From [Synechococcus] sp. NIES-970 (lineage in GTDB: Bacteria; Cyanobacteriota; Cyanobacteriia; Cyanobacteriales; MRBY01), in the NCBI GenBank assembly GCA_002356215.1, contig AP017959.1, positions 2,682,195 through 2,746,194 on the forward strand: a DNA stretch of 64,000 nucleotides, written 5' to 3'. Below the pieces are notes generated by a model, which saw only the letters and a list, made by a program, of their open reading frames with translations, was not told the origin of the DNA and did not search any database. Positions 4,713-54,005 of the stretch are shown piece after piece. The position numbers and the translations under genes were made by a program. The stretch's first letter is position 1, and each line of letters begins with the position of its first letter.

Positions 4713-4896
4713 GTTTCTTTACTTAAAATTCAATAACTTGAGGTGAATCAATTAGTCTTTTTGAAATCATTATATTCTTCACAAAAAAGTTCATAGAATA
4801 GGAGAAGAAGCATTACAGTAACTTTTTTTGCTTAATGCCCAGTCTCAATTCGCTTACTTTCGCACAATCACCCAGGTCAAAGAGGCAAATCCAAGC

Positions 4897-6000
4897 ATGA
4901 GCAATCAAGATTCTTATCTTAAGTACAAAGGCGATATTTTAATCGTTGATGATGTACCAGAAAATCTGCAGCTCCTCTCGGAAATTTTGTCAGAGAATGG
5001 CCATGAGGTGCGCCAGGTCATTAATGGCTACCAAGCCCTCAAAGCGATCACTGCCGACCCCCCTGATTTGGTTCTTCTAGACATCAAAATGCCTGTACTC
5101 GATGGCTATACTGTTTGCCAAAAACTCAAAGCAAATCCAGTTACAGCAAAAATTCCAATTGTTTTTATTAGTGCTCTCAATGATGTTTTTGATAAAGTCA
5201 AAGCATTTACCCTCGGGGGGGTAGACTACATCAACAAACCCTTTGATATGCATGAGGTTTTAGTACGAGTTGAAAATCAGCTAAAAATCCTGAGAAATGC
5301 CCAAGAATTAGAAGAAAAAAACAAAGAATTAGAGCGCATCAATAAAGATCTAAAATCTTTTAATTACATGGTCTCCCATGATCTTCGTCGTCCCCTCACT
5401 AAGCTGCTCGGATTTTGCGAAATACTACTCGATGAAAACACAAATCTTGACGCTGAAACCTTGGAAATGCTAGACATTATTGCCACTTCTGCTAAGGAAA
5501 TGAGTAGTATTATTGCTGAGTTGATGCGACTAGCAGAAATCAAAGAAAAAAAACTCAGTCTTGAAACTTTAAATATGAGCACCATTGCTGTAGAAATCAT
5601 ACAGCAGTTGCAGTTTGAAAATCCAGAACGACAGGTTGAGGTCACCATCGAACCTGATTTATTTGTTATTGGTGATCATGCTCTTCTCAGGGTTGCCTTG
5701 GAAAACCTACTAGAAAATGCCTGGAAATACAGCAGTAAAGTGACAACTGCAAAAATTCAATTTCATAAAATTTCAGCTCAAACCTACTGTATTCAAGATA
5801 ATGGCGCAGGTTTTCAAACAGAAAATCAAGAAGAGTTATTTCTCCCTTTTAAAAGACTCCATAATCAGTCAGACTTTTCTGGTACGGGTATTGGCTTAGC
5901 GATTGTCAAGCGAATTATTGAAGTGCATCGTGGTGATATTTGGGCAGAAGGGGAACCCGACCAAGGTGCAAAATTTTATTTTACCTTGGGAATTCTATAG
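4897..6000 (+). CDS. Hybrid sensor histidine kinase, receiver domain first
   Basis: A 367-residue soluble two-component protein. Domain order is: receiver (DD at 18-19, phospho-acceptor Asp 62 in LLDIKMP, Lys 114 in INKPF), a short coiled coil (about 128-155), HisKA with the phospho-acceptor His 161 in SHDLRRPL, and HATPase_c with N-box ENLLENAWKYS, G1 DNGAGF and G2 GTGIGLAI. No membrane segment is present, so input probably arrives by phosphotransfer to the receiver domain. The ATG at 4897 is preferred over ATG 4828 because the receiver domain starts just after it. The gene is AT-rich with no HIP1 site. Confidence 0.9.
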   Translation: MSNQDSYLKYKGDILIVDDVPENLQLLSEILSENGHEVRQVINGYQALKAITADPPDLVLLDIKMPVLDGYTVCQKLKANPVTAKIPIVFISALNDVFDKVKAFTLGGVDYINKPFDMHEVLVRVENQLKILRNAQELEEKNKELERINKDLKSFNYMVSHDLRRPLTKLLGFCEILLDENTNLDAETLEMLDIIATSAKEMSSIIAELMRLAEIKEKKLSLETLNMSTIAVEIIQQLQFENPERQVEVTIEPDLFVIGDHALLRVALENLLENAWKYSSKVTTAKIQFHKISAQTYCIQDNGAGFQTENQEELFLPFKRLHNQSDFSGTGIGLAIVKRIIEVHRGDIWAEGEPDQGAKFYFTLGIL

Positions 6001-32738: not shown

Positions 32739-35700
32739 CTAGCTTAACTCATCTCCAGAAGCTTTGATCCGGTGACCATAGCCACCGCCGCCGGGGGTTT
32801 TGATCTCCAGGCGATCGCCTTTTTCCATCGCGACTTCAACGGTACTAGACAAAAATGTTTCACTACCATCGCTGCGGATTACCTTGTTTTCTCCACACTG
32901 GCCCGGTAAACCGCCCCCTAATCCAAAGGGTTCTACCTGTCGCCGACTGGAGAGAATCGCCGCTATCATCGGTGCTCGGAATTGTAGCCGCCGCACCACC
33001 CCATTGCCGCCCCTAAAGTTTCCCAAGCCACCGCTATTTCGACGGATGGAAAATTCCTCTAACAGCACCGGAAACCGCCATTCCAAAACCTCTGGATCCG
33101 TGAGGCGCGAATTGGTCATATGGGTCTGTACCGCATCGGTGCCGTGAAAATTGGGGCCAGCGCCGGAACCGCCACAAATGGTTTCGTAATATTGATACTG
33201 AGCGTTCCCAAAGGTGAAATTATTCATTGTCCCTTGGGACGCTGCCATCACTCCCAGAGCGCCATATAGGCAATCAGTAATATTTTGGGACACCTCCACA
33301 TTGCCTGCTACCACCGCCGCTGGATACCGGGGGTTGAGCAGACAGCCTTCGGGAATAATCACGTTGATCGGCTTCAGGCAACCATGGTTGAGGGGAATGT
33401 CATCCTGCACTAGGCTGCGGAAAACGTACAATACCGCCGCTTGGGTCACAGCTTTGGGGGCATTAAAATTTGTCTTGGATTGGGGCGAGGTCCCAGTAAA
33501 ATCCACCTCGGCCGTTTGCTGCTCTTGGTTAATTTTGATCTTCACCTGGAGGCGATCGCCGTTGTCCAGAGGGACGGTAAATTCTCCGTCCCGGAGCCGT
33601 TTTAATTGCTGTTTTACCGCCTGCTCGGCGTTATTCTGCACATGCTGCATGTAGGCCAAAACCATTGCTTGACCATAATGTTGCACAAGTCTTTGGAGTT
33701 CCTGAAGACCTTTGGCATTGGCGGCAATTTGCGCCTGGAGGTCGGCGAGGTTCTGGGTGAGATTACGCACGGGATAAGCCGCCTCGGTAAACAGTTGCGT
33801 AACCGTTGCGGTTTGGAATTGCCCCTGTTTTACGAGGCAAACATTATCAATGAGAATCCCTTCCTCCTGGATCTGGGTGCTTTGGGGAGGCATTGAGCCC
33901 GGCGTAATCCCCCCCAGGTCGGCATGGTGACCGCGAGAGGCGACGAAAAAAAGCGGCTTTGCCATGGCATTGTCCGCTTGGGCCGGCGCAAAAACCGGCG
34001 TGATCACCGTTATATCAGGTAAGTGAGTCCCGCCATTGTAGGGATTATTCGACATATACACATCCCCTGGTTGGAAATGCGTTCCGTGGGCTTGGATTAA
34101 ACTCTGGACGCTTTCTCCCATGGAGCCGAGGTGCACGGGAATGTGCGGGGCATTGGCGACGAGGTGGCCTTGGGGGTCGAAAATCGCACAGGAAAAATCG
34201 AGCCGTTCTTTGATATTTACGGAGTAGCTGGTGTTTTGCAGGGTCACCCCCATCTGTTCGGCGATCGCCCGAAAGAGATTATTAAAAATTTCGAGGGTGA
34301 CGGGATCTGGCTGGCTGAAATCTGTGGTCGCGGGGGCGATCGCCTGGGATACATCCTGTACCTTTTCGAGGATGAGGTGATTATATGTATTTAAGCGGCC
34401 TTGCCAACCAGGTTCAATCACATTTGTGCCTGTTTTTTCAATGATCAGGGCAGGACTAGCAATCACATCACCGGGTTGAAGCGCGGCGCGATCATAGACG
34501 GGAGTTTGCTGCCATTGACCGGTGCTGTACATAGAAACTGTTTCAATCGGTTTTGTAGTGCCGTCAGTGCGTTGGGGTTGGGGACGTTCCGTGGCCGCTT
34601 GGGTTTCACAAATCAGCTCCAGGCTAATCGATTCAACGATCAGCGCCTTATCAGGTAGAGTAAAACCATAGCGTTGCTGGTGCAGGGCGGCAAATTCGGC
34701 CACCATCGCCGCCAGATCACCATCATTGACAATCAAAATAGAGTCCGTGCCCTGGTACTTGAGATGAACCTGGCGGGCCTCGACAATTTTTGCCTGGGCT
34801 GGGGGCTGTTGCTGATTTAGTTCGGCGATCGCCTGTTGTCTGAGTTCCTGGAATTTTGCTTCTAGTTCAGCAAGGAGATGATTCTCTAAAACCTTTTCGA
34901 TCGCCTTTTCTTTGAGCATTCGAATTTCTGCTAAACCAATGCCATAGGCTGATAACACTCCCGCAAAGGGATGAATCACGATGGTCTTTATCCCCAGGGT
35001 ATCGGCGATCGCACAGGCATGTTGTCCCCCTGCCCCCCCAAAGCAACAGAGGGCATAGTTACTCACATCGTGGCCCCGTTGCAAAGAAATCTGCTTAATC
35101 GCATTGCTCATGTTCTCCACGGCGATCGCCAGAAAACCAGCGGCCACAGCTTCAGGATCTTGGTTTAAAGTTGCCGCCAGGGCTTGGAATTTTTTCTGGA
35201 CAATGGCGCGATTTAAGGGATCTTTTCCCGCTGGCCCAAACACTTTTGGGAAGAACTCCGGCTGGATTTTCCCCAACAGCACATTACAATCGGTGACCGT
35301 CAGTGGCCCCCCTTTGCCATAGCAGGCAGGCCCCGGATGCGCCCCGGCAGATTCTGGCCCGACCCGAAACCGCGCGCCGTCATATTGCACCAGAGAACCG
35401 CCCCCCGCCGCCACAGTATGGATCGCCAACATCGGCGTTTTCAGGCGCACCCCAGCAATTTCTGTTTCAAAACTACGTTCGTAAGTGCCGTCGTAGTGGG
35501 CGACATCGGTGGAGGTACCCCCCATGTCAAAGGTGATAATTTTTTCAAAGCCGGCGATCGCACAGGTTTTTACTGCCCCGACAATGCCCCCGGCTGGCCC
35601 CGAGAGGATACTGTCTTTCCCCTGGAATTGTTGCGCCTCCGTGAGGCCGCCATTGGACTGCATAAACATCAGTTTTGGCCCCTGACCCGCGGCCTGGAGA

Positions 35701-36395
35701 TAGCCGGCCACTTGATCCACATAGCGGCGTAAAATCGGCGATAGATAGCCATCTACCATCGTCGTGTCGCCCCGGCTGACCAACTTCATCAACGGGCTGA
35801 CCTGATGGGACAGGGAAATCTGGGTAAAGCCAATTTCCTGGGCGATCGCCCCAATTTGCCGCTCGTGGTCAGGGTAACGGTAGCCATGCATCAGTACCAC
35901 CCCACAACTGCGAATCCCTGCGTCAAAGGCGTTTTGTAAATCCTGTTTAACCTGGGCTACATTCAGGGGCTGCAACACATTCCCCTGAGCATCAAGGCGC
36001 TCCTGGGCCTCGATCGCCTGCTCATAGAGCATTTCCGGTAGCTTAATTTCTAGGGCAAAAATATCTGGGCGATGTTGATAACCAATCCTTAGGGCATCGC
36101 GAAATCCCTGGGTAATCACCAACACTAGGCGATCGCCTTTCCGTTCCAGGAGGGCATTGGTGGCCACCGTTGTCCCCATTTTGATCACTTCAATGTGATC
36201 TGTGGGGATTGCATCATGGGAATTTAAACCGAGTAAGTCCCGGATCCCCTGCACTGGCGCATCGGGGTAGCGCTCTGGATTTTCTGACAGGAGCTTATGG
36301 GTGACCAGCTCGCCATCGGGACGTTTGGCGACGATATCAGTAAAAGTGCCGCCCCGATCAATCCAAAATTGCCAACGAGAGCAAGTTGCTGCCAT
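32739..36395 (-). CDS. 5-oxoprolinase (HyuA-HyuB fusion)
   Basis: One 1218-residue chain combines the hydantoinase A half and the hydantoinase B half, as in eukaryotic and many bacterial 5-oxoprolinases that hydrolyse 5-oxo-L-proline with ATP. The N-terminal half has [35 protein letters not shown] and [11 protein letters not shown]; the C-terminal half has [24 protein letters not shown] and FRGGNGVVR. Fusion is normal for one subfamily. The enzyme would recycle oxoproline from glutathione breakdown or damaged peptides. Monocistronic, facing argB. Confidence 0.93.
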
Positions 36396-37276: not shown

Positions 37277-39043
37277 CTAAAACTCTCTTCTAATACCAAC
37301 AACTGTGATATCGTCAAATTGTTCTGCTTCCCCAATATGTTTGATAACAGCACCAGTAATATTCTGGACTAAGTGATCAGCAGAATCATATGTTTGAAGC
37401 ATCATTTCTTTCAGATGATCCATGCCATAAAAAGATCCAGTGATTGATTTTGATTCAGGAATACCATCCGTATAAACGCAAAATAAATCTCCATTTTTAA
37501 ATTCCACTTCTTGTATCTGAAAAGGCAAATCAACCATCATTCCCACCGCTGGGCCAGTTGAATTCAAAACCTGCTTGATATTCCCTTGGGAATCCAAAAG
37601 AAAAGCTGGTTCATGGCCACCACTAACATATTTCATTATGCCAGTTTTTGTGTCCAACACACCAAAAAAAATAGTTGCAAACATCCCTGTATCGCCATGG
37701 TTTAAAGCCACATAATTATTAGCCAGAGAAATAGCTTCAAGTGCTGGTTGATAGTTGTCTTCTCTCCTTAGGCTTTCGAGATCAAGGATCTTGTGAGATT
37801 CCAAATGAAGTCCATCTAAAAGTGTTTGCCCAGAAAAAATTCTGATTAGACTACGAAAAAGCCCCATAAATAAAGCTGCGCCAACACCTTTGTCACAAAC
37901 ATCTGCAACTACGATGCCAATTGCATCATTAGGTAATTCAAATAAATCATAAAAATCACCAGAAAGTTGTTTTGCTGGACTAAAAAAAGTACTAAATTCC
38001 CAACCTTTTTTATTTGGAATTTCAGACGGCAGAAAATTTTTTTGCATTTGTCGTCCTTTATCCAGTTCATTCTGCATAATGGAAGACAGGGTTTCCAATT
38101 GGTGAGTATATAGGACTTCCTTGTCTCTTAATTTTTTACGCTCTAGAGATGCTTCGATACGAGCTTTTAACAAAACAGGATCACAAGGCTTAGGCAAGTA
38201 ATCTTCTGCGCCAATTTGAATACACTGAACAATATGCTGAAAATCATCCAAAGCCGAAATCATCACTACTGGAATAAACTGAAATTCAGTGTGGCTTTTC
38301 AAGAATTTCAAGAATTCATAACCAGTGACTTCTGGCATTATTACATCTAAAAGAATAATGTCAAATAAGTGTTGTTTCAAAATATCAATAGCAAGTTTTG
38401 CACTAAGACAAGTAGTAACTTGATGGCCTTGTCGAGTTAGTTGACGTTCTAGAAGATCTACATTAGCTTGATTATCATCTACTACTAAAATTCGTCCCAA
38501 CAGATCTCTTCTGGCTTTTTGGGTACTCTGATTTAAAACATCTTCTGTGTTTTCTTCAAAAAAATCGCTAGATATATTGAAGGTTGTGTTTTCAATCCTT
38601 AAAGAGTCTTGGAAATTTTCGTAGATACTTTCGAGACTATAAACAAGATTTTTGAGTTTTGTCGTTGCTATTTGGATTTTTTCTAAATCTTGAATAAGTT
38701 CCTCGTCTATGATTTCATCGCGTAATTCACTTATTTTTAAGAAAATATTTTCTATGGAAGGTGCCATGAGCAAAAGCACTTTAGAAAAACATTCTTTTAA
38801 CAGAAAAGGCTCTGGCTTAGATTTTTTATCTGATGCCAGTAGATTATTGATGATTTCCAAGAGTTCATGGGCTTGGTCAATCACATAACTGCATTTTTTT
38901 GCAGAAGAAGATTCTATTTCTTCTAGATCTTCTTGAACTATCTCCGCATATCCAATAATCGCGTTAATTGGTGTGCGAAGCTCATGACGAATCAAAGAAA
39001 GTAATTGATATAAAGTTTCAGTTTGAATATTATTTTTTGTCAT
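37277..39043 (-). CDS. HisKA-REC-PP2C (SpoIIE-type) phosphatase, IcfG-like
   Basis: A 588-residue regulator. Residues 15-90 are a HisKA-type region with the phospho-acceptor box SLIRHELRTPINAIIGYAE, but no HATPase domain follows. A receiver with Asp in IILLDVIMPEVTG occupies about 185-305. The C-terminus (about 345-588) is a metal-dependent Ser/Thr phosphatase of the SpoIIE/RsbU class: LSGDFYDLFE, VVADVCDKGVGAALFM, YVSGGHEPAFLL, VYTDGIPES, FDDITVVGI. By analogy it dephosphorylates the STAS proteins encoded upstream, with activity set by phosphorylation of its own receiver from another kinase. It is the last gene of the run and comparable to IcfG of Synechocystis, from memory. Confidence 0.88.
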   Translation of the reverse strand: MTKNNIQTETLYQLLSLIRHELRTPINAIIGYAEIVQEDLEEIESSSAKKCSYVIDQAHELLEIINNLLASDKKSKPEPFLLKECFSKVLLLMAPSIENIFLKISELRDEIIDEELIQDLEKIQIATTKLKNLVYSLESIYENFQDSLRIENTTFNISSDFFEENTEDVLNQSTQKARRDLLGRILVVDDNQANVDLLERQLTRQGHQVTTCLSAKLAIDILKQHLFDIILLDVIMPEVTGYEFLKFLKSHTEFQFIPVVMISALDDFQHIVQCIQIGAEDYLPKPCDPVLLKARIEASLERKKLRDKEVLYTHQLETLSSIMQNELDKGRQMQKNFLPSEIPNKKGWEFSTFFSPAKQLSGDFYDLFELPNDAIGIVVADVCDKGVGAALFMGLFRSLIRIFSGQTLLDGLHLESHKILDLESLRREDNYQPALEAISLANNYVALNHGDTGMFATIFFGVLDTKTGIMKYVSGGHEPAFLLDSQGNIKQVLNSTGPAVGMMVDLPFQIQEVEFKNGDLFCVYTDGIPESKSITGSFYGMDHLKEMMLQTYDSADHLVQNITGAVIKHIGEAEQFDDITVVGIRREF

Positions 39044-39061
39044 AAAATAAGGGGAAATTTC

Positions 39062-39427
39062 TTAAGTTGACAAAAGAGTATTTATTTTTTCCAAGAGTCG
39101 CTTAAATTCTATCGGCTTAGTATCATAATCGTCGCATCCAGCAGCAAACGCTTTTGTGCGATCACTTGCCATGGCATGGGCAGTTAAGGCAATAATTGGG
39201 ATATTAGCCGTGACCTCTTGATTCTTAAGATGCTTAGTCGCCGTCCAGCCATCAATAATTGGCAAACTCATATCCATCAAAATCAAATCAGGTGTTTCTG
39301 ATGATGCCATGCTAATCGCCTGTTCGCCATCAACGGCAATAACAACATCAAATCCTTTGCGAATAAGCCTCCTAGAGAGCATATCCCGATTCATTTCATT
39401 GTCTTCAACTAAGAGAATCTTATTCAT
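39062..39427 (-). CDS. Single-domain response regulator (CheY-like)
   Basis: A 121-residue stand-alone receiver: acidic pocket in ILLVEDNEMN, phospho-acceptor Asp 53 region in LILMDMSLPIIDG, Thr in ALTAHAM and Lys in YDTKPIEF. No output domain. It ends 18 bases before the HisKA-REC-PP2C gene, so it is co-transcribed. It may carry phosphate to or from the HisKA-type histidine of that protein; this is inference. Confidence 0.9.
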   Translation of the reverse strand: MNKILLVEDNEMNRDMLSRRLIRKGFDVVIAVDGEQAISMASSETPDLILMDMSLPIIDGWTATKHLKNQEVTANIPIIALTAHAMASDRTKAFAAGCDDYDTKPIEFKRLLEKINTLLST

Positions 39428-39510: not shown

Positions 39511-39951
39511 TTAATTTTGCACATCAATGTTCATTATAAAAATATTATAATTATAGTTGTCGGCTCTCTCATATTGAAATCCATCAACAGAATTCAATGC
39601 CAAAAAAACACCTAAACCGCCTATCTCTCTCTCTTCTAAACTAAGGGATAGATCTTCTGCCGATGGAAGATCACGTGTTGTTGGGTCATAGGGAATACCC
39701 TGATCTTTAAGTGTGATGACTAAGCTTGATTCATTAATTTCTGCTTTTAGGGTAATATTTTTTGCTATATTTACTTTTTGATGGCCATATAAAATAACAT
39801 TTGTTGCAATTTCATCAATTGCCAAACGAAGATTATACGCAGATTTTTTACTCAAGCCTGCTTTTTGAGCAACGTCTAAAACCCAAGATGCTATTGTAGA
39901 TAATGAGTCTAAAGATGCTGGACAACTTAAATCATCTGGGATAGAAGACAT
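39511..39951 (-). CDS. RsbW-like anti-sigma-type serine kinase (HATPase)
   Basis: A 146-residue GHKL ATPase of the RsbW/SpoIIAB class: N-box LAIDEIATNVILYG, G1 LKDQGIPYDP and G2 EIGGLGVFLAL. Such kinases phosphorylate a partner STAS protein on serine, and the free form binds sigma factor or another target. Two STAS proteins are encoded in the same run, one immediately before it and one upstream of glgX. Which of them is the partner, and whether the target is a sigma factor, cannot be read. Between it and the STAS gene lies a gap of about 100 bases. Confidence 0.88.
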   Translation of the reverse strand: MSSIPDDLSCPASLDSLSTIASWVLDVAQKAGLSKKSAYNLRLAIDEIATNVILYGHQKVNIAKNITLKAEINESSLVITLKDQGIPYDPTTRDLPSAEDLSLSLEEREIGGLGVFLALNSVDGFQYERADNYNYNIFIMNIDVQN

Positions 39952-40054: not shown

Positions 40055-40363
40055 TTATTCTTCAAGCACAACACTATGATGAAATCCCGTTTTTTTAATG
40101 GTTTCTTTTACCATTTCTTGGGTATTTATAAGATAAATTGTCACCGCACTTCCCATCTGCTGCTTGGAGAATATTAATACTCTCAGACCTGCACTAGCCA
40201 TGTAATCAAGGTTCTTTAAGTCTAAAATCAGCTCCCTAAGATCATAGGCTGCAGCTTCTTTGATTTTTTCCTGAAAAAGTTCTGCAGAACTGGCATCTAG
40301 CTGACCTGACAGATTTATGGTTGCAACATCATTATTAACACTTAAAGTAACTTCTAAAGACAT
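40055..40363 (-). CDS. STAS domain anti-anti-sigma-type protein (second copy)
   Basis: A 102-residue STAS protein: SVNNDVATINLSGQLDASSAELFQEKI followed by LILDLKNLDYMASAGLRVL, in which the Ser of the ASAGL motif occupies the expected phosphorylation region. I chose ATG 40363, preceded by AGGA at the right distance; an upstream in-frame TTG at 40429 overlaps the glgX end. It lies directly after glgX and before the kinase gene, the place of an RsbV-type partner of that kinase. Confidence 0.88.
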   Translation of the reverse strand: MSLEVTLSVNNDVATINLSGQLDASSAELFQEKIKEAAAYDLRELILDLKNLDYMASAGLRVLIFSKQQMGSAVTIYLINTQEMVKETIKKTGFHHSVVLEE

Positions 40364-40418
40364 ATTTTTTCCTGATAAATTGACAAATTTTAATAGGGCT
40401 TGAATTTTGGGCATGAAA

Positions 40419-42536
40419 TTATCTGGCAATCAAAATAACGGCTGATCGCTCTCTAAGGAATAAACCCGATTGATTATCAATCATAATTTCATTTCCAGGA
40501 GAATTAATGTCCATAGGACTAGCGACTCCTGTATTAGCAAAAATATACCATTTTTTACCTTCAAGAGTTCGCGGTAATTCAAAGTAATGTGCTTGCCAAT
40601 GCATGTTAAATGCAACGTATATCCTTTCATCAGCGATAGTTCCCTGTTTAGCATGTTTTCCACACAACATAAAAGCAATGATATGCGAAGAAGACCAATC
40701 AGCTTGCCAAGCCTGAGTTCCATGCCAACTGATATCAGGGAGTCCACTACCTACATAATCTTTATTTTGAAAATGATGGGTGTTTCTCAACACAGGATGG
40801 GCATTACGGAAAGCAATCATTGCTTTTGTAAAACGAAATAATTCATGATTTTTACTTAACAAATTCCAATTCAACCAATTCAATTCGTTGTCATGGCAAT
40901 ATGTATTATTGTTTCCGTTTTTGGTCCTACCAAATTCGTCTCCCATCAAGATCATAGGGACACCCTGACTAACCATCAACATCACTATGGCATTTTTAAT
41001 TTGACGGTAACGCAAACTTAAAATTTGTGGATCATCGGTTGGCCCTTCAACACCGCAATTCCAACTATCATTGTCATTACTTCCATCATTATTGTTTTCT
41101 CCATTAGCTATATTTTGTTTTTGGTTGTAAGAAACCAAATCCATTAATGTAAAGCCATCATGACAGGTGATAAAGTTAATAGATGTTGCTGGAGAGCGAC
41201 CAGATGCTGCATACAAATCAGGAGAGCCTTGTAAACGTTGAGCTACCTCTCCAACATTACCATCCCCTTTTAAAAATTTCCGTATACTATCTCTGTATTT
41301 GCCGTTCCATTCCGCCCAACGACCATATGCAGGAAAAGAACCAACTTGATAAAGACCACCTGCGTCCCATGCTTCTGCGATGAGCTTGCATTTAGCTAAG
41401 ATTGGATCAAATGCTAAGCTTTCTAATAAAGGAGGATTAGTCAAAGGATAACCCCACGGATCACGACCTAAAATAGCCGCCAAGTCAAATCGAAATCCAT
41501 CAATATGGTATTCAGCAGCCCAATAACGTAAACAATCTAAAACCATTCCCCGCACAATTGGATTATTACAATTGAGGGTATTACCAGTACCACTAAAATT
41601 AAAATAATAACCTTCTGGGGTTAGCATATAGTATGTTTTATTATCAATGCCACGGAAAGAAATAGTCGGCCCTTTTTCATTTCCTTCTGCTGTATGATTA
41701 AAAACAACATCTAAAATGACTTCAATGCCATGCTTATGTAATGTTTTGACTAAATTTTTAAATTCGTCAACTTGCATTCCATACTTCCCAGTAGCTGCAT
41801 AACCAGTTTTAGGTGCAAAAAAACCAACGGTACTATAGCCCCAGTAATTAACCAGTAGTTCTCCTGTTTCAGGGTTTAGACGACTATTCTCAAATTCATC
41901 AAATTCATAAATAGGCATTAACTCAATAGTATTAATACCTAATTCTTTAAAATAGGGGATTTTTTCAAGAATACCCGCAAAAGTTCCCTGGTGTTTTTCT
42001 TTTATTCCGGAAGAAGGATGACGCGTAAAACTACGTACGTGCATTTCATAAATAATTTGATCTTCTGGAGGAATTTCTAATAGACAGTCATCTTCCCAGT
42101 CAAAGTCATCAAAGGCGATTCGCGACCGATGCTGATAAATATCTTGCCAGTCAGGTGTTACCCCCCATACATCTCGTCCACCAATGCTTCTAGCATAGGG
42201 ATCCATTAAGATTTTACTCTTGTCAAACCAATGACCTTCTTTAAAATCATTTGGGCCATCCATTCGATAACCATACTCAAGATTTTCGTAGTCAAGATCA
42301 AAAACTATCATGCAATAAACGTTGCCAATACGAAATTCCGTAGGAAATGGAATTTCAATCAATGGTTCTTTAGCATGTTTTTCAAAAAGAACTAATATGC
42401 ATGAAGTTGCATAGCTAGAATATATTGAAAAATTGATTCCACCCGGAACAAGAGTCGCACCAAATGGAAAAGGTTTCCCACAACGCAACTTATATTGGTG
42501 ATAGGTGTGTGTGGGATGAACGTCAATTCTCTGCAT
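40419..42536 (-). CDS. glgX: Glycogen debranching enzyme GlgX (isoamylase-type)
   Basis: A 705-residue GH13 enzyme that hydrolyses alpha-1,6 branches of glycogen. The N-terminal CBM48-like region (RCGKPFPFGATLVPGGINFSIYS) precedes the catalytic barrel: DVVFNHTAEG, GFRFDLAAILGRD (nucleophile Asp), LIAEAWDAGG (acid/base Glu), FITCHDGFTLMDL and the C-terminal beta domain with IYVAFNMHWQ. It stands between two STAS genes in a regulatory run, which suggests that glycogen mobilisation is co-regulated with the partner switch. Long intact frame, AT-rich, no HIP1. Confidence 0.95.
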   Translation of the reverse strand: MQRIDVHPTHTYHQYKLRCGKPFPFGATLVPGGINFSIYSSYATSCILVLFEKHAKEPLIEIPFPTEFRIGNVYCMIVFDLDYENLEYGYRMDGPNDFKEGHWFDKSKILMDPYARSIGGRDVWGVTPDWQDIYQHRSRIAFDDFDWEDDCLLEIPPEDQIIYEMHVRSFTRHPSSGIKEKHQGTFAGILEKIPYFKELGINTIELMPIYEFDEFENSRLNPETGELLVNYWGYSTVGFFAPKTGYAATGKYGMQVDEFKNLVKTLHKHGIEVILDVVFNHTAEGNEKGPTISFRGIDNKTYYMLTPEGYYFNFSGTGNTLNCNNPIVRGMVLDCLRYWAAEYHIDGFRFDLAAILGRDPWGYPLTNPPLLESLAFDPILAKCKLIAEAWDAGGLYQVGSFPAYGRWAEWNGKYRDSIRKFLKGDGNVGEVAQRLQGSPDLYAASGRSPATSINFITCHDGFTLMDLVSYNQKQNIANGENNNDGSNDNDSWNCGVEGPTDDPQILSLRYRQIKNAIVMLMVSQGVPMILMGDEFGRTKNGNNNTYCHDNELNWLNWNLLSKNHELFRFTKAMIAFRNAHPVLRNTHHFQNKDYVGSGLPDISWHGTQAWQADWSSSHIIAFMLCGKHAKQGTIADERIYVAFNMHWQAHYFELPRTLEGKKWYIFANTGVASPMDINSPGNEIMIDNQSGLFLRERSAVILIAR

Positions 42537-42600: not shown

Positions 42601-42936
42601 TTATGTTTGAAAAACTGTTGTTGCTTCTTCTAGAGAAGAATAAGTTTTAAAGAAACTCAAAAAGCCAGTTACAGCCATTGTGTCCTGAACATCTTCAGAT
42701 AAACCTACGATTACTAAAATACTGTTTTGACCTGTTGATTGTCGGTGTAATGAAAGCAACATGCGCAAACCAGCACTAGACATATAGGCGACTTTTGTCA
42801 TATCCAAAATGATTTTAGCGCTTGGTTTAATAATTGGTAAAATTTGTTCAGTAACAATTGGCGCTGTGCTCGCATCAATATCGCCAGTAAGTGACGCAAT
42901 TTGCAGATCATCAATAGTTTGAAGAGATATTTGCAT
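42601..42936 (-). CDS. STAS domain anti-anti-sigma-type protein (first copy)
   Basis: A 111-residue STAS protein with ISLQTIDDLQIASLTGDIDA, then KIILDMTKVAYMSSAGLRMLL; the serines of SSAGL lie where SpoIIAA/RsbV-type proteins are phosphorylated. I chose ATG 42936 because the STAS fold begins there; the longer frame starts at an ATG at 43014 inside the gap after the AGE gene and adds a hydrophobic, unconserved leader. It precedes glgX. It is only moderately similar to the second STAS protein, so the two may serve different partners. Confidence 0.85.
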   Translation of the reverse strand: MQISLQTIDDLQIASLTGDIDASTAPIVTEQILPIIKPSAKIILDMTKVAYMSSAGLRMLLSLHRQSTGQNSILVIVGLSEDVQDTMAVTGFLSFFKTYSSLEEATTVFQT

Positions 42937-43025
42937 AATATTTATGATGGATAAGATAATCAATATGTTCAAATAACCAGGTAAAGCTTGAATTCCAAAC
43001 CTTGTTTGTATCAAGCTTTATTTTT

Positions 43026-44843
43026 TTAGTTGGGCAGTATCTGAACCTTGATTTTGATGCGTTCATGGGTTTTAGGTAGATTGACTGTTAATTCATCTGC
43101 ATCAAAATTAGTATAAGGTTCACCATCAATTTCACATTTTCCAATTTTCACACTGCCTTTAGGCAGAATATCCGGTGCAACCCTTAAAATATTATCAGGA
43201 AAGCCGCCAGGAATTGGTTTAAAATAAAAGTCCATTGGCTGTTTTGTAATCAATAAATTAGTATAAACAGCAGCAAGATAACATAATTCAAAAGAATGAT
43301 AGCCGCTCATGGAATGACTTCCTTTTCCACGTTCATTACCACCAGAAAGATAAGGGATACCATTGGCCAGAACATTAAAATACACGCCTCCATCTTCTAA
43401 ATCGAGGAACCAAGCGTTATAAAAAGCAGCAGCTTCTCGAGCTAAACGATGATACTCTTTATTTGTTAGAGTGCCAGATAAAATTAGATAGGCAAGGATA
43501 GATTGTTCCTGCTGCCACCAGGCTTTTCGATCATGCCAAACAAAACGATATTGAGTTTCACCTTCTGCTAGGGAACGCTCAAGCACGTCATACCAGCCGC
43601 CTCGTTGTTGATCACTACCAACATCAGGCATTAAATTGGCAATTTTTTGAGCTAAAGAGGAATATTTTTCTTTTCCTTTTAGGCTCTGCATACGCATCAA
43701 ATTCCAGGCAATTTTAAGATTATGACCGACGACAGCGCGGTTCTGTTGCCATCCCCAAGTTTTATCGTGGGACCAATCTTCATAGAAGCGCTCTTGCACA
43801 AATGGGCTATTTTCATAATCAGGAAAATATTTTTCAATCGTATCAAACGTATATTCAATCATCTCTGCATACTCTTGTTTGCCAGTTACTAGCCAGAGAT
43901 TAATTAGATATGCAGGAGCATGATCGCCTACTGAATTCCAATTTTTTTTCGCCTTATTATCTCCTAATGTATCACTGCGAGGATCTAGGGTTAGGGGATC
44001 TAAATGGGAAAAATAACCACCATATTCACTTTTATCTAAGAAGAATTTATCAAAAAGCTTGATGGTTTTTTCGGTATCCTCCATAATCCGGGGATCACCG
44101 GTGCATCGGTAAGTTTGAACAGGGCCAGCTAGCGCATAAATTTGCTCATAGGCGGGAATTGCATAATAATCATCGCCAAACTCTGAAGCAAAGATTTTTG
44201 TTTCGCGATCACCTTGTACATCGATACCGTGATACCAATACACAATATCTTCATCAAGATCAACAAAGCGCATGTGTTCACGGAGATATTCTGTACCCCG
44301 TTCTGCTGCTTTTAGAAAGCTATCATTGCCTGTCATCATAAAAGCAGTAGCAAAACCATATACAAGACGAGAAATAGTATCAGTTTCTTGGCGAAAACTA
44401 TTCGTTTGCATGCCAGAAAGATTTAAGTCTGTTCGATATCGACGGTAATCATAATCTCCTTCCCCAAACTGTGCTTTCAAGTAAAATTTACCTAAGGCAT
44501 TAATTTGCTTAACCCACCAATCTTGCTTTTCAAAAACATATTCATTCTGTTTAAAACCAACAAAAACAAGATTTTTTGCATCAAAAATCTGACTATCAGG
44601 ATAAAAAATACCATAGGCGAATAAGTAACGACCAGGCAAAAGCATAGAACGCATGCTGCCAGTGGCGTCGGGATAGCCTTCTTCAAAATTTTGAATAATT
44701 TTAGCGTATGCCATGGCAGACAATTTTACTAAAAATTCACGACCGTCTGAAGTTTTCAAGCCAAACGTGTCTTCAGATTCATTGAAACTAGTAACATACC
44801 CGGCGATTAGATCAGAAAAAGAAAAACTTGTGGTGGATGACAT
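43026..44843 (-). CDS. AGE-epimerase-like (N-acylglucosamine 2-epimerase / renin-binding type) protein
   Basis: A 605-residue protein. The first 130 residues form a separate beta-rich part (ITSFNESEDTFGLKTSD-type strands; LIAGYVTSFNESEDTFGLKT, PGRYLFAYGIFYPD). The remainder is an (alpha/alpha)6 barrel typical of AGE and related sugar isomerases: RLVYGFATAFMMTGND, YAIPAYEQIYALAGPVQTY, TWGWQQNRAVVGHNLKIAWNLM, WWQQEQSILAYLIL. Conserved His in VGHNLK and the Trp-rich end support a sugar-binding barrel. True substrate could be a free sugar or a glycogen-derived saccharide. It is a standard member of the icfG-type cluster, from memory. Confidence 0.82.
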   Translation of the reverse strand: MSSTTSFSFSDLIAGYVTSFNESEDTFGLKTSDGREFLVKLSAMAYAKIIQNFEEGYPDATGSMRSMLLPGRYLFAYGIFYPDSQIFDAKNLVFVGFKQNEYVFEKQDWWVKQINALGKFYLKAQFGEGDYDYRRYRTDLNLSGMQTNSFRQETDTISRLVYGFATAFMMTGNDSFLKAAERGTEYLREHMRFVDLDEDIVYWYHGIDVQGDRETKIFASEFGDDYYAIPAYEQIYALAGPVQTYRCTGDPRIMEDTEKTIKLFDKFFLDKSEYGGYFSHLDPLTLDPRSDTLGDNKAKKNWNSVGDHAPAYLINLWLVTGKQEYAEMIEYTFDTIEKYFPDYENSPFVQERFYEDWSHDKTWGWQQNRAVVGHNLKIAWNLMRMQSLKGKEKYSSLAQKIANLMPDVGSDQQRGGWYDVLERSLAEGETQYRFVWHDRKAWWQQEQSILAYLILSGTLTNKEYHRLAREAAAFYNAWFLDLEDGGVYFNVLANGIPYLSGGNERGKGSHSMSGYHSFELCYLAAVYTNLLITKQPMDFYFKPIPGGFPDNILRVAPDILPKGSVKIGKCEIDGEPYTNFDADELTVNLPKTHERIKIKVQILPN

Positions 44844-52205: not shown

Positions 52206-54005
52206 ATGACCTCGCACAATACCAATTTCCAAAATTTCAACTCGTCCGGCGATTCGGAATCTAAAAATCGGGACTTAGTGACAATTCTGGTTATTGAAGA
52301 TGATGCCATTATTCGCAAACTTACCCAAAAGATTTTGACGAATGCTGGTTATATCGTGGTTGAAGCCAGTAATGGTGAAGAAGGGGTCCGCCTGGCGGCA
52401 GACTACAGCCTTGATCTCATTATCTGTGATGTCATGATGCCTGGCCTCAATGGTTATGACGTTTTGGCACAACTTCAGCAGCAAGAAGAAACGAAAATGA
52501 TTCCGTTTATTTTCTTGACGGCCCAAGCTGAAACTGGGCAACTGCGTCGGGGCATGATTTCGGGAGCGGATGACTATCTAGTCAAGCCGATTCGAGCTGC
52601 AGAGCTTCTCAAAGCCGTAGAAGTGCGCCTCAAAAAATACACAAGGGTCAAACAGTACTACGCTGAACAGCTCGATCAGCTGAATGCCAAGGATACCCTG
52701 ACAGGGTTGCCCAATCCGAGTAGTGTCGAGGATGCATTTCAACAAATTATTTCCCAGTTTCCCGCCGATCTAGATAGTGACGCCATTCCTCCCACCGCCC
52801 TTCTTTCGATTAGCATTGATCGCTTTCCCCTGCTGAATGAATATCTCGGCCATGGGGTAGTGCGCCAGCTCATAAAACGTGTGGCTGTCCGTCTTCAAGG
52901 TGTTTTAGAAAAATATGGCTTGATTGCCAGTCTGAATACATCAGAATTTTGTGCTTTACTGAAGCCCCTAGAGCACCGCTATGAAGTGACTGGTATTGCC
53001 CGGGAGCTCTTAGATGTCTTTAGTGAGCCTTTTGCGATCGAAGGGCATCAAGATATTTTTGTCAGTCTCAGTGTTGGGATTGCCCTCTATTTTAGAGATG
53101 CGTTCACCCTTGACGAACTCTTAAACCACGCCCACACAGCCATGGTGAGAGTCCAACAGCAAGGAGGGAATCAATCGGCTTTTTACTCTGTCGCAATGAA
53201 TGTGGGGCGCTTTAATGCAGTATCCCTCGAATCTGATTTGAGACAAGCCATTGAGAACAATGAACTGGAAGTTTTTTATCAACCGAAAGTTAATCTGCAA
53301 ACAGGCAAAGTTGTTGGAGCGGAAGCTCTCTTGCGTTGGTTTAGCCCAACCCGCGGCCTAGTTTCACCCAATCAATTTATCCCCCTGGCAGAAGAAACTG
53401 GTTTAATTATTCCGATTGGTGAATATGTTTTAGATGAAGCTTCTAGTCAGTTGCGGCGCTGGCAAATGGCTGGTTTAAAAGATTTTTACATGTCTATTAA
53501 TCTTTCGGCAAAACAGTTTACCCAGCTCAATCTTCACCATCGTCTCAGTCAAATTATTATCAATAACCAACTGCAACCTCAGGATCTGCAGCTAGAGCTC
53601 ACGGAAAGCACTTTAGTAAATAATGGGGATGCGTCGATACGCCGCCTCAAAGCTCTCCGCTCTCTGGGAATTAAAATTGCCCTCGATGATTTTGGGACTG
53701 GTTATTCTTCTTTGAGCTATCTCCAACAATTTACCTTTGACACTCTTAAAATTGATCGTTCCTTTATTCATAAAATCCATGAAAATAATGTGAATGCAAC
53801 GATCATTAGTTCCATTATCGATATGGCTCATAAACTGGGTTTAAAGGTCATTGCTGAGGGGGTTGAGGAACAGGCAGAATTAGAATTTTTAACACAGTTT
53901 GAGTGTGATGAAATTCAAGGTTTCTTATTTAGTCGTCCGATTCGCGCGGGAGAATTCTTGAGTTCCCCCTTTATTGACTTGGACACTCTATCCCAGACAG
54001 TCTAG
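52206..54005 (+). CDS. REC-GGDEF(degenerate)-EAL cyclic di-GMP phosphodiesterase
   Basis: A 599-residue soluble signalling protein. The receiver (TILVIEDDAIIRKL, LIICDVMMPGLNG, YLVKPIR) is followed by a GGDEF-like domain whose active motif is lost (SLNTSEFCAL stands where GGDEF should be). An EAL domain keeps the catalytic set: GAEALLRW, LELTEST, DDFGTGYSSL, LKIDRSFI and AEGVEE. It likely hydrolyses cyclic di-GMP, with the broken GGDEF possibly binding GTP to tune activity, as in known examples. Phosphorylation of the receiver would control it. A bidirectional terminator follows. Confidence 0.9.
   Translation: MTSHNTNFQNFNSSGDSESKNRDLVTILVIEDDAIIRKLTQKILTNAGYIVVEASNGEEGVRLAADYSLDLIICDVMMPGLNGYDVLAQLQQQEETKMIPFIFLTAQAETGQLRRGMISGADDYLVKPIRAAELLKAVEVRLKKYTRVKQYYAEQLDQLNAKDTLTGLPNPSSVEDAFQQIISQFPADLDSDAIPPTALLSISIDRFPLLNEYLGHGVVRQLIKRVAVRLQGVLEKYGLIASLNTSEFCALLKPLEHRYEVTGIARELLDVFSEPFAIEGHQDIFVSLSVGIALYFRDAFTLDELLNHAHTAMVRVQQQGGNQSAFYSVAMNVGRFNAVSLESDLRQAIENNELEVFYQPKVNLQTGKVVGAEALLRWFSPTRGLVSPNQFIPLAEETGLIIPIGEYVLDEASSQLRRWQMAGLKDFYMSINLSAKQFTQLNLHHRLSQIIINNQLQPQDLQLELTESTLVNNGDASIRRLKALRSLGIKIALDDFGTGYSSLSYLQQFTFDTLKIDRSFIHKIHENNVNATIISSIIDMAHKLGLKVIAEGVEEQAELEFLTQFECDEIQGFLFSRPIRAGEFLSSPFIDLDTLSQTV

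Follow-up and report, generated by a model that had tools for sequence, protein, structure and literature searches.

The window considered here is the whole 64,000-nucleotide stretch that was analysed, positions 2,682,195 to 2,746,194 of contig AP017959.1 of [Synechococcus] sp. NIES-970. It contains an icfG-type gene cluster that ends with the genes for a stand-alone (solo) receiver (REC) and for a 588-amino-acid (aa) protein, the presumed phosphatase of the switch, and this protein with its putative phosphorelay input is the subject of the present analysis (Table 1). In the direction of transcription, a gene for a 605-aa epimerase-like protein is followed by those for the second STAS protein, GlgX, the first STAS protein, the HATPase_c_2 kinase, the solo REC and the phosphatase, the last two genes being separated by 18 bases (39044-39061), as already stated in the initial annotation, which was made from the letters alone. 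The joint presence of two STAS genes, the HATPase_c_2 kinase gene, glgX and the epimerase-like gene marks the cluster as icfG-type. The HATPase_c_2 kinase is the presumed counterpart of Slr1861, and the label 'AGE' that we use for the 605-aa protein is an assumption of ours.

Table 1. Features of the phosphatase and its cluster (window positions) and related genes in other places (positions in the contig or locus named)
Feature	Position	Strand	Basis or remark
DHp-DHp*-REC-PP2C protein, 588 aa, presumed phosphatase of the icfG-type switch	37277..39043	-	
DHp1 (HisKA), residues 8-74	38822..39022	-	Pfam PF00512; His in 23/24 fronts
Putative phospho-acceptor His20 of DHp1, within HELRTP	codon 38984-38986		
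DHp2, residues 78-150, putative degenerate His-less second DHp hairpin (DHp*)	38594..38812	-	hhalign and AF2 helices 79-110, 114-181
Fused receiver domain, residues 185-296; Asp233 (acceptor), Asp189/190, Ser263, Lys285	38156..38491	-	Pfam
SpoIIE-type PP2C domain, residues 372-586 by Pfam	37286..37930	-	Pfam; PP2C tree
Solo receiver, 121 aa, Asp52	39062..39427	-	Pfam, E 1.9e-26
HATPase_c_2 anti-sigma/Ser kinase, RsbW/SpoIIAB type	39511..39951	-	Pfam PF13581, 1.9e-20; also in icfG clusters of relatives
STAS anti-anti-sigma protein 1	40055..40429	-	TIGR00377, 1.3e-23
GlgX glycogen debranching enzyme	40419..42536	-	TIGR02100, 2.2e-209
STAS anti-anti-sigma protein 2	42601..43014	-	TIGR00377, 1.7e-22
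605-aa epimerase-like protein	43026..44843	-	NF041848, 1.9e-5, far below cut-off; synteny with L052, L053, L055, L123, L170
720-aa candidate kinase (L059)	G000:C1:2527158-2529320		about 190 kb from the phosphatase
Free tandem-DHp gene, G071	L196 4856-5302	-	after kinase and solo REC
Free tandem-DHp gene, G088	L198 7841-8287	+	after kinase and solo REC
Free tandem-DHp gene, G068	L192 9119-9547	+	after kinase and solo REC

The phosphatase and its place in the icfG-type cluster

Pfam identifies three domains in the 588-aa protein, namely HisKA at residues 13-70 (E 5e-10, 39.7 bits with a cut-off of 26.9), Response_reg at residues 185-296 (E 1e-25) and SpoIIE/PP2C at residues 372-586 (E 2.4e-39), and no HATPase at E up to 1; this agrees with the initial description of a HisKA region and a receiver ahead of a SpoIIE-type domain. 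The protein accordingly lacks the HATPase domain of a hybrid histidine kinase. The same three domains are present in 12 of the 12 members of alignment A1 (Pfam, E up to 10), in none of which a HATPase match appears at E up to 10 with HMMER's filters on. Of 14 full-length proteins available for A1, 12 were used, the near-copies L039 and L048 being omitted and the interrupted L044 not included. The Hpt profile (PF01627) has no match in the window protein (E up to 1) or in the A1 members (E up to 10), again with HMMER's filters on, and there are six Hpt places elsewhere in the genome.

The residues expected of an active receiver are all present in the fused domain: Asp233, Asp189/190, Ser263 and Lys285, five in total, are invariant in the 16 rows of alignment A2, which consists of 16 fronts (the parts from HisKA through the receiver). 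In the phosphatase part, Asp363 (just ahead of the Pfam PP2C span), Asp381, Asp526 and Asp577/578, which we take to be the metal-site residues, are invariant in the 12 rows of A1 (where the numbering is one lower).

A cryptic HATPase domain, whose presence the initial annotation had itself named as a refutation of its reading, was looked for by profile, at E up to 1 and up to 10, and in an AlphaFold2 (AF2) model, and none was found. Such a domain between HisKA and REC is rejected, the profile searches being empty and the region being predicted as all-helical, with no Bergerat fold seen in the model of residues 1-183.

The gene content is like that of the Synechocystis PCC 6803 icfG cluster (slr1856, slr1857, slr1859, icfG/slr1860, slr1861), with its STAS-type antagonists, isoamylase/GlgX, HATPase kinase and PP2C phosphatase (PMC12329169). 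In that system, Slr1861 is described as the kinase for Slr1856, Slr1859 and Ssr1600 and as controlling SigC holoenzyme formation, and IcfG dephosphorylates Slr1856 but not Slr1859; the operon is placed in a carbon-signalling network, the Ssr1600 phosphatase is said to remain to be identified, and the accessible part of the paper names no input to IcfG (PMC12329169).

The window cluster differs from this arrangement in that the slot of IcfG is empty and the solo REC and DHp-DHp*-REC-PP2C genes follow the HATPase gene. In the relatives G036 (L052) and G007 (L053), an IcfG-type phosphatase is encoded between the first STAS gene and the HATPase gene, with a dCache-HAMP-PP2C organization in the former and GAF-GAF-PP2C in the latter; in these two genomes, unlike in the window, the pair of solo REC and phosphatase genes lies apart from the icfG cluster. 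No IcfG phosphatase with such a sensor front (dCache-HAMP or GAF) is encoded in the window cluster, where the front is DHp-DHp*-REC, and a search of the same genome with the L053 IcfG (E up to 1e-20) returns the window phosphatase as its sole match. In G013 (L123, L040), a single strand carries in this order the genes for the epimerase-like protein, STAS, GlgX, STAS, HATPase, an AMP-binding/reductase-like protein, a hybrid kinase, the solo REC and the HisKA-REC-PP2C protein, with no IcfG gene in the run from STAS/HATPase to HisKA-REC-PP2C. G132 resembles G013 from GlgX on, where its contig starts, with a porin gene and an opposite-strand gene between STAS and HATPase. In two families (f1, f14), therefore, this phosphatase stands where IcfG is missing. 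Within the genus of the window, a search with the cluster kinase (E up to 1e-10) finds matches in two of the six genomes searched, its own and G106 (weak, 4.4e-16).

Other genes of the window include one for a 1218-aa hydantoinase A/B (oxoprolinase-type) fusion downstream of the cluster (32739-36395, minus strand), one for a 390-aa REC-HisKA-HATPase kinase (4828-6000, plus strand) and one for a 599-aa REC-GGDEF-EAL protein (52206-54005, plus strand). A scan for promoters and terminators yielded 28 and 2 sites, with 32.6 and 5.5 expected, and neither count is informative.

The tandem DHp front

DHp domains are four-helix bundles formed as dimers. The clearest indication that the front of the phosphatase contains two DHp hairpins comes from a homolog in G175 (L121), in which two HisKA-like hairpins stand in a row, the first with HELRTP and the second with Tyr for His; the DHp1 profile of the other fronts matches this second copy at 6e-13. 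In the window protein and the other fronts the second copy is, to judge by the profiles, worn down, and by eye it has no His at the place that matches His20. Comparison of DHp1 with DHp2 by hhalign gives a probability of 96.4 with 17 fronts and of 88.1 (score 32.0) without L121; among 200 column shuffles the score reached at most 19.8 (mean 9.0), the reversed profile scored 8.2, and for four further segments of that alignment the probability was 0.1 to 0.4. With 24 fronts the probability is 96.6, falling to 93.3 without L121 and to 88.7 without L121 and the three free proteins (see below). Residues 78-150 thus have the appearance of a further DHp hairpin, akin to DHp1 and devoid of the His.

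Single-sequence AF2 prediction for residues 1-183 yields four helices and nothing but helix (3-42, 48-67, 79-110 and 114-181), with a predicted local distance difference test (pLDDT) value of at least 90 for 78 residues and with means over 10-residue blocks mostly at 80-97 in the bundle part. A longer construct, 1-305, reproduces these helices, the first one interrupted, at slightly lower block means; its receiver part, at a mean pLDDT of 52.2, is not modelled. With the 1-183 model, Foldseek found 1005 matches among solved structures at E up to 10 and none at E up to 0.001. In a VIA second look, the best Z score was 14.4, for a de novo four-helix bundle, and PDK4 had 11.0 (121 residues aligned, root-mean-square deviation 2.2); none of the 50 matches listed is a DHp or HPt chain by title, which excludes nothing. 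Z values of this size are often seen with helical bundles, and we accordingly make no family claim from the structure search. By sequence, phmmer matches 10 histidine-kinase-type entries of the PDB, the best of them at residues 14-72 (2.3e-6). A single chain would, by this prediction, build the kind of four-helix bundle for which Spo0B and ChpT dimerize.

The likeness to Spo0B and ChpT, in which helical hairpins serve as phosphotransferase in a four-helix bundle (PMC3433190), includes the putative acceptor His on a DHp hairpin. It is limited by the fact that their bundles are built of two subunits (PMC3433190), in contrast to a single-chain tandem with one His. A C-terminal ATPase-like domain is a known part of Spo0B. 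ChpT likewise has one after its hairpin (PMC3433190), where the window protein has a second hairpin and then the REC domain.

The front also exists on its own. Free tandem-DHp proteins of 148 aa are encoded in G071 and G088 (76% identical to each other), between the solo REC and a phosphatase with a front of its own, and a 142-aa protein of this kind is encoded after the kinase and the solo REC in G068, which indicates that the front is a separable unit. It could be proposed, at what we consider even odds, that the tandem DHp, with one hairpin that carries the His and one that does not, is a distinct histidine phosphotransferase, a covalent pseudo-dimer that acts as a single-chain HPt either as a free protein of 142-148 aa or fused to REC-PP2C, and that through it cyanobacteria link a single family of sensor kinases to two or more different partner switches, among them the icfG type and a DUF6272/STAS type. 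The front would then suggest an origin of a phosphotransferase from a kinase domain, by duplication of the DHp hairpin and loss of one His and of the ATPase domain.

Recurrence of the module and a candidate kinase

Of 148 genomes sampled across the order, 41 have a match to the phosphatase at E up to 1e-60, 14 of them full length (the window genome included), and in G007 the gene is interrupted by a stop; this count is a lower bound, as G068, G071 and G088 have such proteins and no match at that threshold. Among 386 genomes sampled across the phylum, for each of which five candidates were scored, 11 have the front in full, from HisKA to receiver, at E up to 1e-45. When contigs were scanned with the window phosphatase alone, a single weak locus came up, L058, whose match is confined to the receiver part.

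The neighbourhood of the pair was read in 14 other genomes (L038-L051). The solo REC gene directly precedes the HisKA-REC-PP2C gene in 13 of these (the stop-interrupted gene of G007 among them) and is a remnant in G046, so that the pairing, as read from gene order, is not due to chance. A kinase gene adjoins the pair in 12 of the 14, either upstream or, in G036, G078 and G007, divergently; the kinase beside the pair of G083 is split by another open reading frame, and G451, whose pair is the closest to that of the window among those read, has a divergent kinase. Directly before the kinase gene, four loci encode an AMP-binding/carrier/reductase-like protein of about 970-1450 aa (L040 1027-4002, L042 5292-8210, L045 12457-15465, L198 41-4387), with Pfam run on the L042 copy only; the window cluster has no such gene.

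Of 24 fronts, drawn from 21 genomes, 23 have His at the position of His20, and the following position is E in 19 and D in 4. These fronts are not independent cases, given the near-copies L038/L039 and L047/L048 and the two fronts each from G068, G071 and G088. The sole exception, G046, has Tyr in place of His20. Its kinase and solo REC genes are reduced to a fused frame of 220 aa (L051 6165-6827, plus strand). There, a fragment of the kinase (82% identical to residues 238-355 of the G120 relative) is followed immediately by the latter portion of the receiver (62%, residues 31-122). In G017, the phosphatase gene is broken and the H-box is changed in a way that keeps the His. These loci agree with the His mattering only while the relay exists, but a single case is no statistics.

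Two classes of PP2C domains are coupled to this front. Class A, consisting of the phosphatases of the window, G036, G078 (not in the tree), G013, G083, G132, G117 and G451, lies on the same side of the PP2C tree as the phosphatases of icfG-type clusters, and class B (G119, G067, G086, G103, G019, G120, G046) has a quite different PP2C. Only this split is used here, from a tree in which the branches of own_L002 and class B are very long, class A is not recovered as one clade (2 changes) and I_L095, one of 25 rows marked I, falls with class B; L052, L053, L055-L057, L122 and L170 are those of the 25 that were seen in clusters, and L044, L117, L121 and L039 are not in the tree. In the neighbourhoods searched for them, DUF6272- and STAS-like genes follow the class B gene: G119 (the source of the queries), G046, G017, G068, G071 and G088. 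The G175 protein (L121 6376-7608, minus strand), encoded beside a 985-aa kinase and a solo REC, carries after its DHp-DHp*-REC front a C-terminal tail without a PP2C match in Pfam. Class A, class B and the PP2C-less protein together indicate that the kinase-REC-front unit has been combined with different outputs.

In the window genome, no such kinase adjoins the pair, and the probable kinase for it is a protein of 720 aa whose gene lies at a distance of about 190 kb, with a weak match to a PDC-type sensor, HAMP, HisKA (1.5e-20) and HATPase_c (4.7e-27). The linked kinase of G013 finds this gene in the window genome at 301 bits, the next kinase reaching 185. Conversely, in 12 of the 14 other genomes with a pair, the 720-aa kinase finds as its best match the kinase gene that adjoins the pair. 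The exceptions are G117, where the best match lies within 14 kb of the HATPase gene and the pair is 1 Mb away, and G046, where the kinase beside the pair is only a remnant. The DHp helix around the His of the 720-aa kinase is also the closest to DHp1 of the phosphatase (17/34 identical, BLOSUM62 score 88, next kinase of the genome 79) among the 19 helices parsed from the 37 other HisKA places of the genome (38 places in total, 37 over the cut-off, one being the window protein), a likeness that docking of the same solo REC on both would lead one to expect. In 11 pairs, the own one included, kinase and phosphatase helices share 16-21 of 34 residues. Adjoining the kinase gene, G000:C1:2529356-2532392 (L167 14357-17393) presumably encodes symporter-like (dicarboxylate/amino acid) and amino-acid racemase-like proteins, labels we assign from the N-terminal sequence; these neighbours are a possible hint to its signal.

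The proposed relay and its alternatives

We propose, with a probability of about 0.6, that the window encodes an icfG-type partner switch with its phosphatase under a four-step His-Asp-His-Asp relay. The 720-aa sensor kinase would phosphorylate the solo REC at Asp52, from which the phosphate would pass to His20 of the phosphatase's own DHp1, with DHp1 and the His-less DHp2 folding as a single-chain four-helix phosphotransfer bundle, and from His20 to Asp233 of the fused receiver. Phosphorylation of Asp233 would alter how active PP2C is on the cluster's phosphorylated STAS proteins, in opposition to the HATPase kinase, and downstream of the STAS proteins the HATPase kinase and then a sigma factor would respond. 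The parts are complete at each step, in that the kinase has HisKA and HATPase domains, both the intermediate and the terminal receiver have the acceptor Asp, and the phosphotransfer domain has its His. The domains, the conserved active-site residues, the cluster context, the best-match relation of the kinase, the recurrence of the module and the similarity of the DHp2 and DHp1 profiles are read from sequence; each of the phosphotransfers, the four-helix bundle, whether the effect is positive or negative, the STAS proteins as substrates, a sigma factor as output and the signal are inferred.

The initial annotation had likewise suggested a phosphorelay input from an unlinked kinase. This reading is supported, circumstantially, by a specific unlinked kinase whose best match lies beside the pair in most relatives and whose DHp helix is the closest, and by the conservation of the His; the lack of linkage holds only in this genome and in G117 and is not a feature of the module.

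Several observations weigh against the proposed relay. The DHp1 profile gives the second copy of the window protein itself only 3.8 bits, the hhalign probability falls to 71.8 without L121, L051 and L117, the AF2 models of the bundle rest on a single sequence, and the Z scores (best 14.4) are within the range of unrelated helical bundles. When the whole window protein is used as the query in its own genome, another kinase scores slightly higher on the HisKA part than the candidate (27.2 vs 25.9 bits). Kinases of G113, G079 and G044 score similarly (293-295 bits, kinase core), and solo RECs of the same type (177-179 bits) lie near kinases in G020, G047 and G009, and in neither group does the stretch read contain a tandem-DHp front; the link between kinase and pair is thus not exclusive, and this type of solo REC may serve further outputs. 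The decay or interruption of the loci in G046, G017 and G007 implies that the module is dispensable, and the persistence of the G046 phosphatase with Tyr implies that the PP2C output is not always in need of the His. As a separate observation, the G020, G047 and G009 loci (L200, L201, L202) also encode a receiver protein of 351-356 aa beside the kinases.

The main rival, in our view an unlikely one, is docking without transfer, in which the phosphorylated solo REC would bind the DHp bundle and act allosterically on the phosphatase, as phosphorylated DivK does on the pseudokinase DivL, with the fused REC phosphorylated directly by a kinase. PleD and DivK are the closest solved relatives of the solo REC by sequence, DivL is described as retaining a DHp domain that has no phospho-acceptor and as binding phosphorylated DivK (PMC4211667), and the Tyr of G046 stands at the place of His20 as in DivL. 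The conserved His speaks against this explanation: DivL homologs are reported to carry a conserved Tyr, whereas His20 is present in the window protein, as it is in 23 of the 24 fronts, with E or D next to it in 23, and the Tyr of G046 is better read as decay, given that its solo REC is itself truncated. Somewhat less probable still would be phosphorylation of His20 directly by the ATPase domain of the kinase, perhaps through mixed DHp pairing, with the solo REC as a sink or a second output. The close kinship of the kinase and DHp1 helices is compatible with such pairing, but DHp2 is expected, from the model, to occupy the pairing face, and in 13 of 14 relatives the solo REC gene is the one immediately preceding that of the phosphatase. 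The least probable of these alternatives, and quite improbable in our judgement, is that the front is the remnant of a sensor kinase, its DHp region being without a role and PP2C being controlled by the fused REC only. The absence of an ATPase domain and the decay in some relatives would fit a vestige, but the H-box is kept across several families and two PP2C classes, and the front is also found as free genes and, in G175, with a non-PP2C tail.

The logic of such a relay is already known from other bacteria. In the Pak-SdrG-PhyT-PhyR system of Sphingomonas, a kinase, a single-domain receiver, a His phosphotransferase and an effector receiver act in succession; unlike in the window, PhyT is separate and membrane-bound and PhyR regulates the sigma factor EcfG, with transferase and effector here in one chain and PP2C as the output (PMC5898713). 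In the HptB-HsbR-HsbA system of Pseudomonas, a phosphorelay enters a REC-PP2C protein that sets the phosphorylation of a STAS-type antagonist, with the difference that HptB is a separate protein and HsbR has its own kinase/anti-sigma domain (PMC6482189). Apparently new are the tandem DHp and its occurrence in an icfG-type switch, no description of either having been found in the open-licence literature, covered mostly at the level of listings and titles.

We take the pair to correspond to slr1982/slr1983 of Synechocystis and the divergent kinase to sll1871/Hik6, names that are assumed rather than confirmed, and G036, G078 and G007 to be Synechocystis-like from their neighbouring genes. The product of slr1983 is described as a putative Ser/Thr phosphatase (PMC3264485) and as a response regulator and putative phosphatase (PMC10068330). 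A mechanism for slr1983 or slr1982 was not found in the accessible parts of the open-licence literature, nor was any such literature found on Hik6/sll1871 of Synechocystis. If the proposed relay is correct, the input to the icfG-type switch would, in some lineages, be a two-component relay with a named kinase, and the question of this input would thereby become testable with a handful of proteins.

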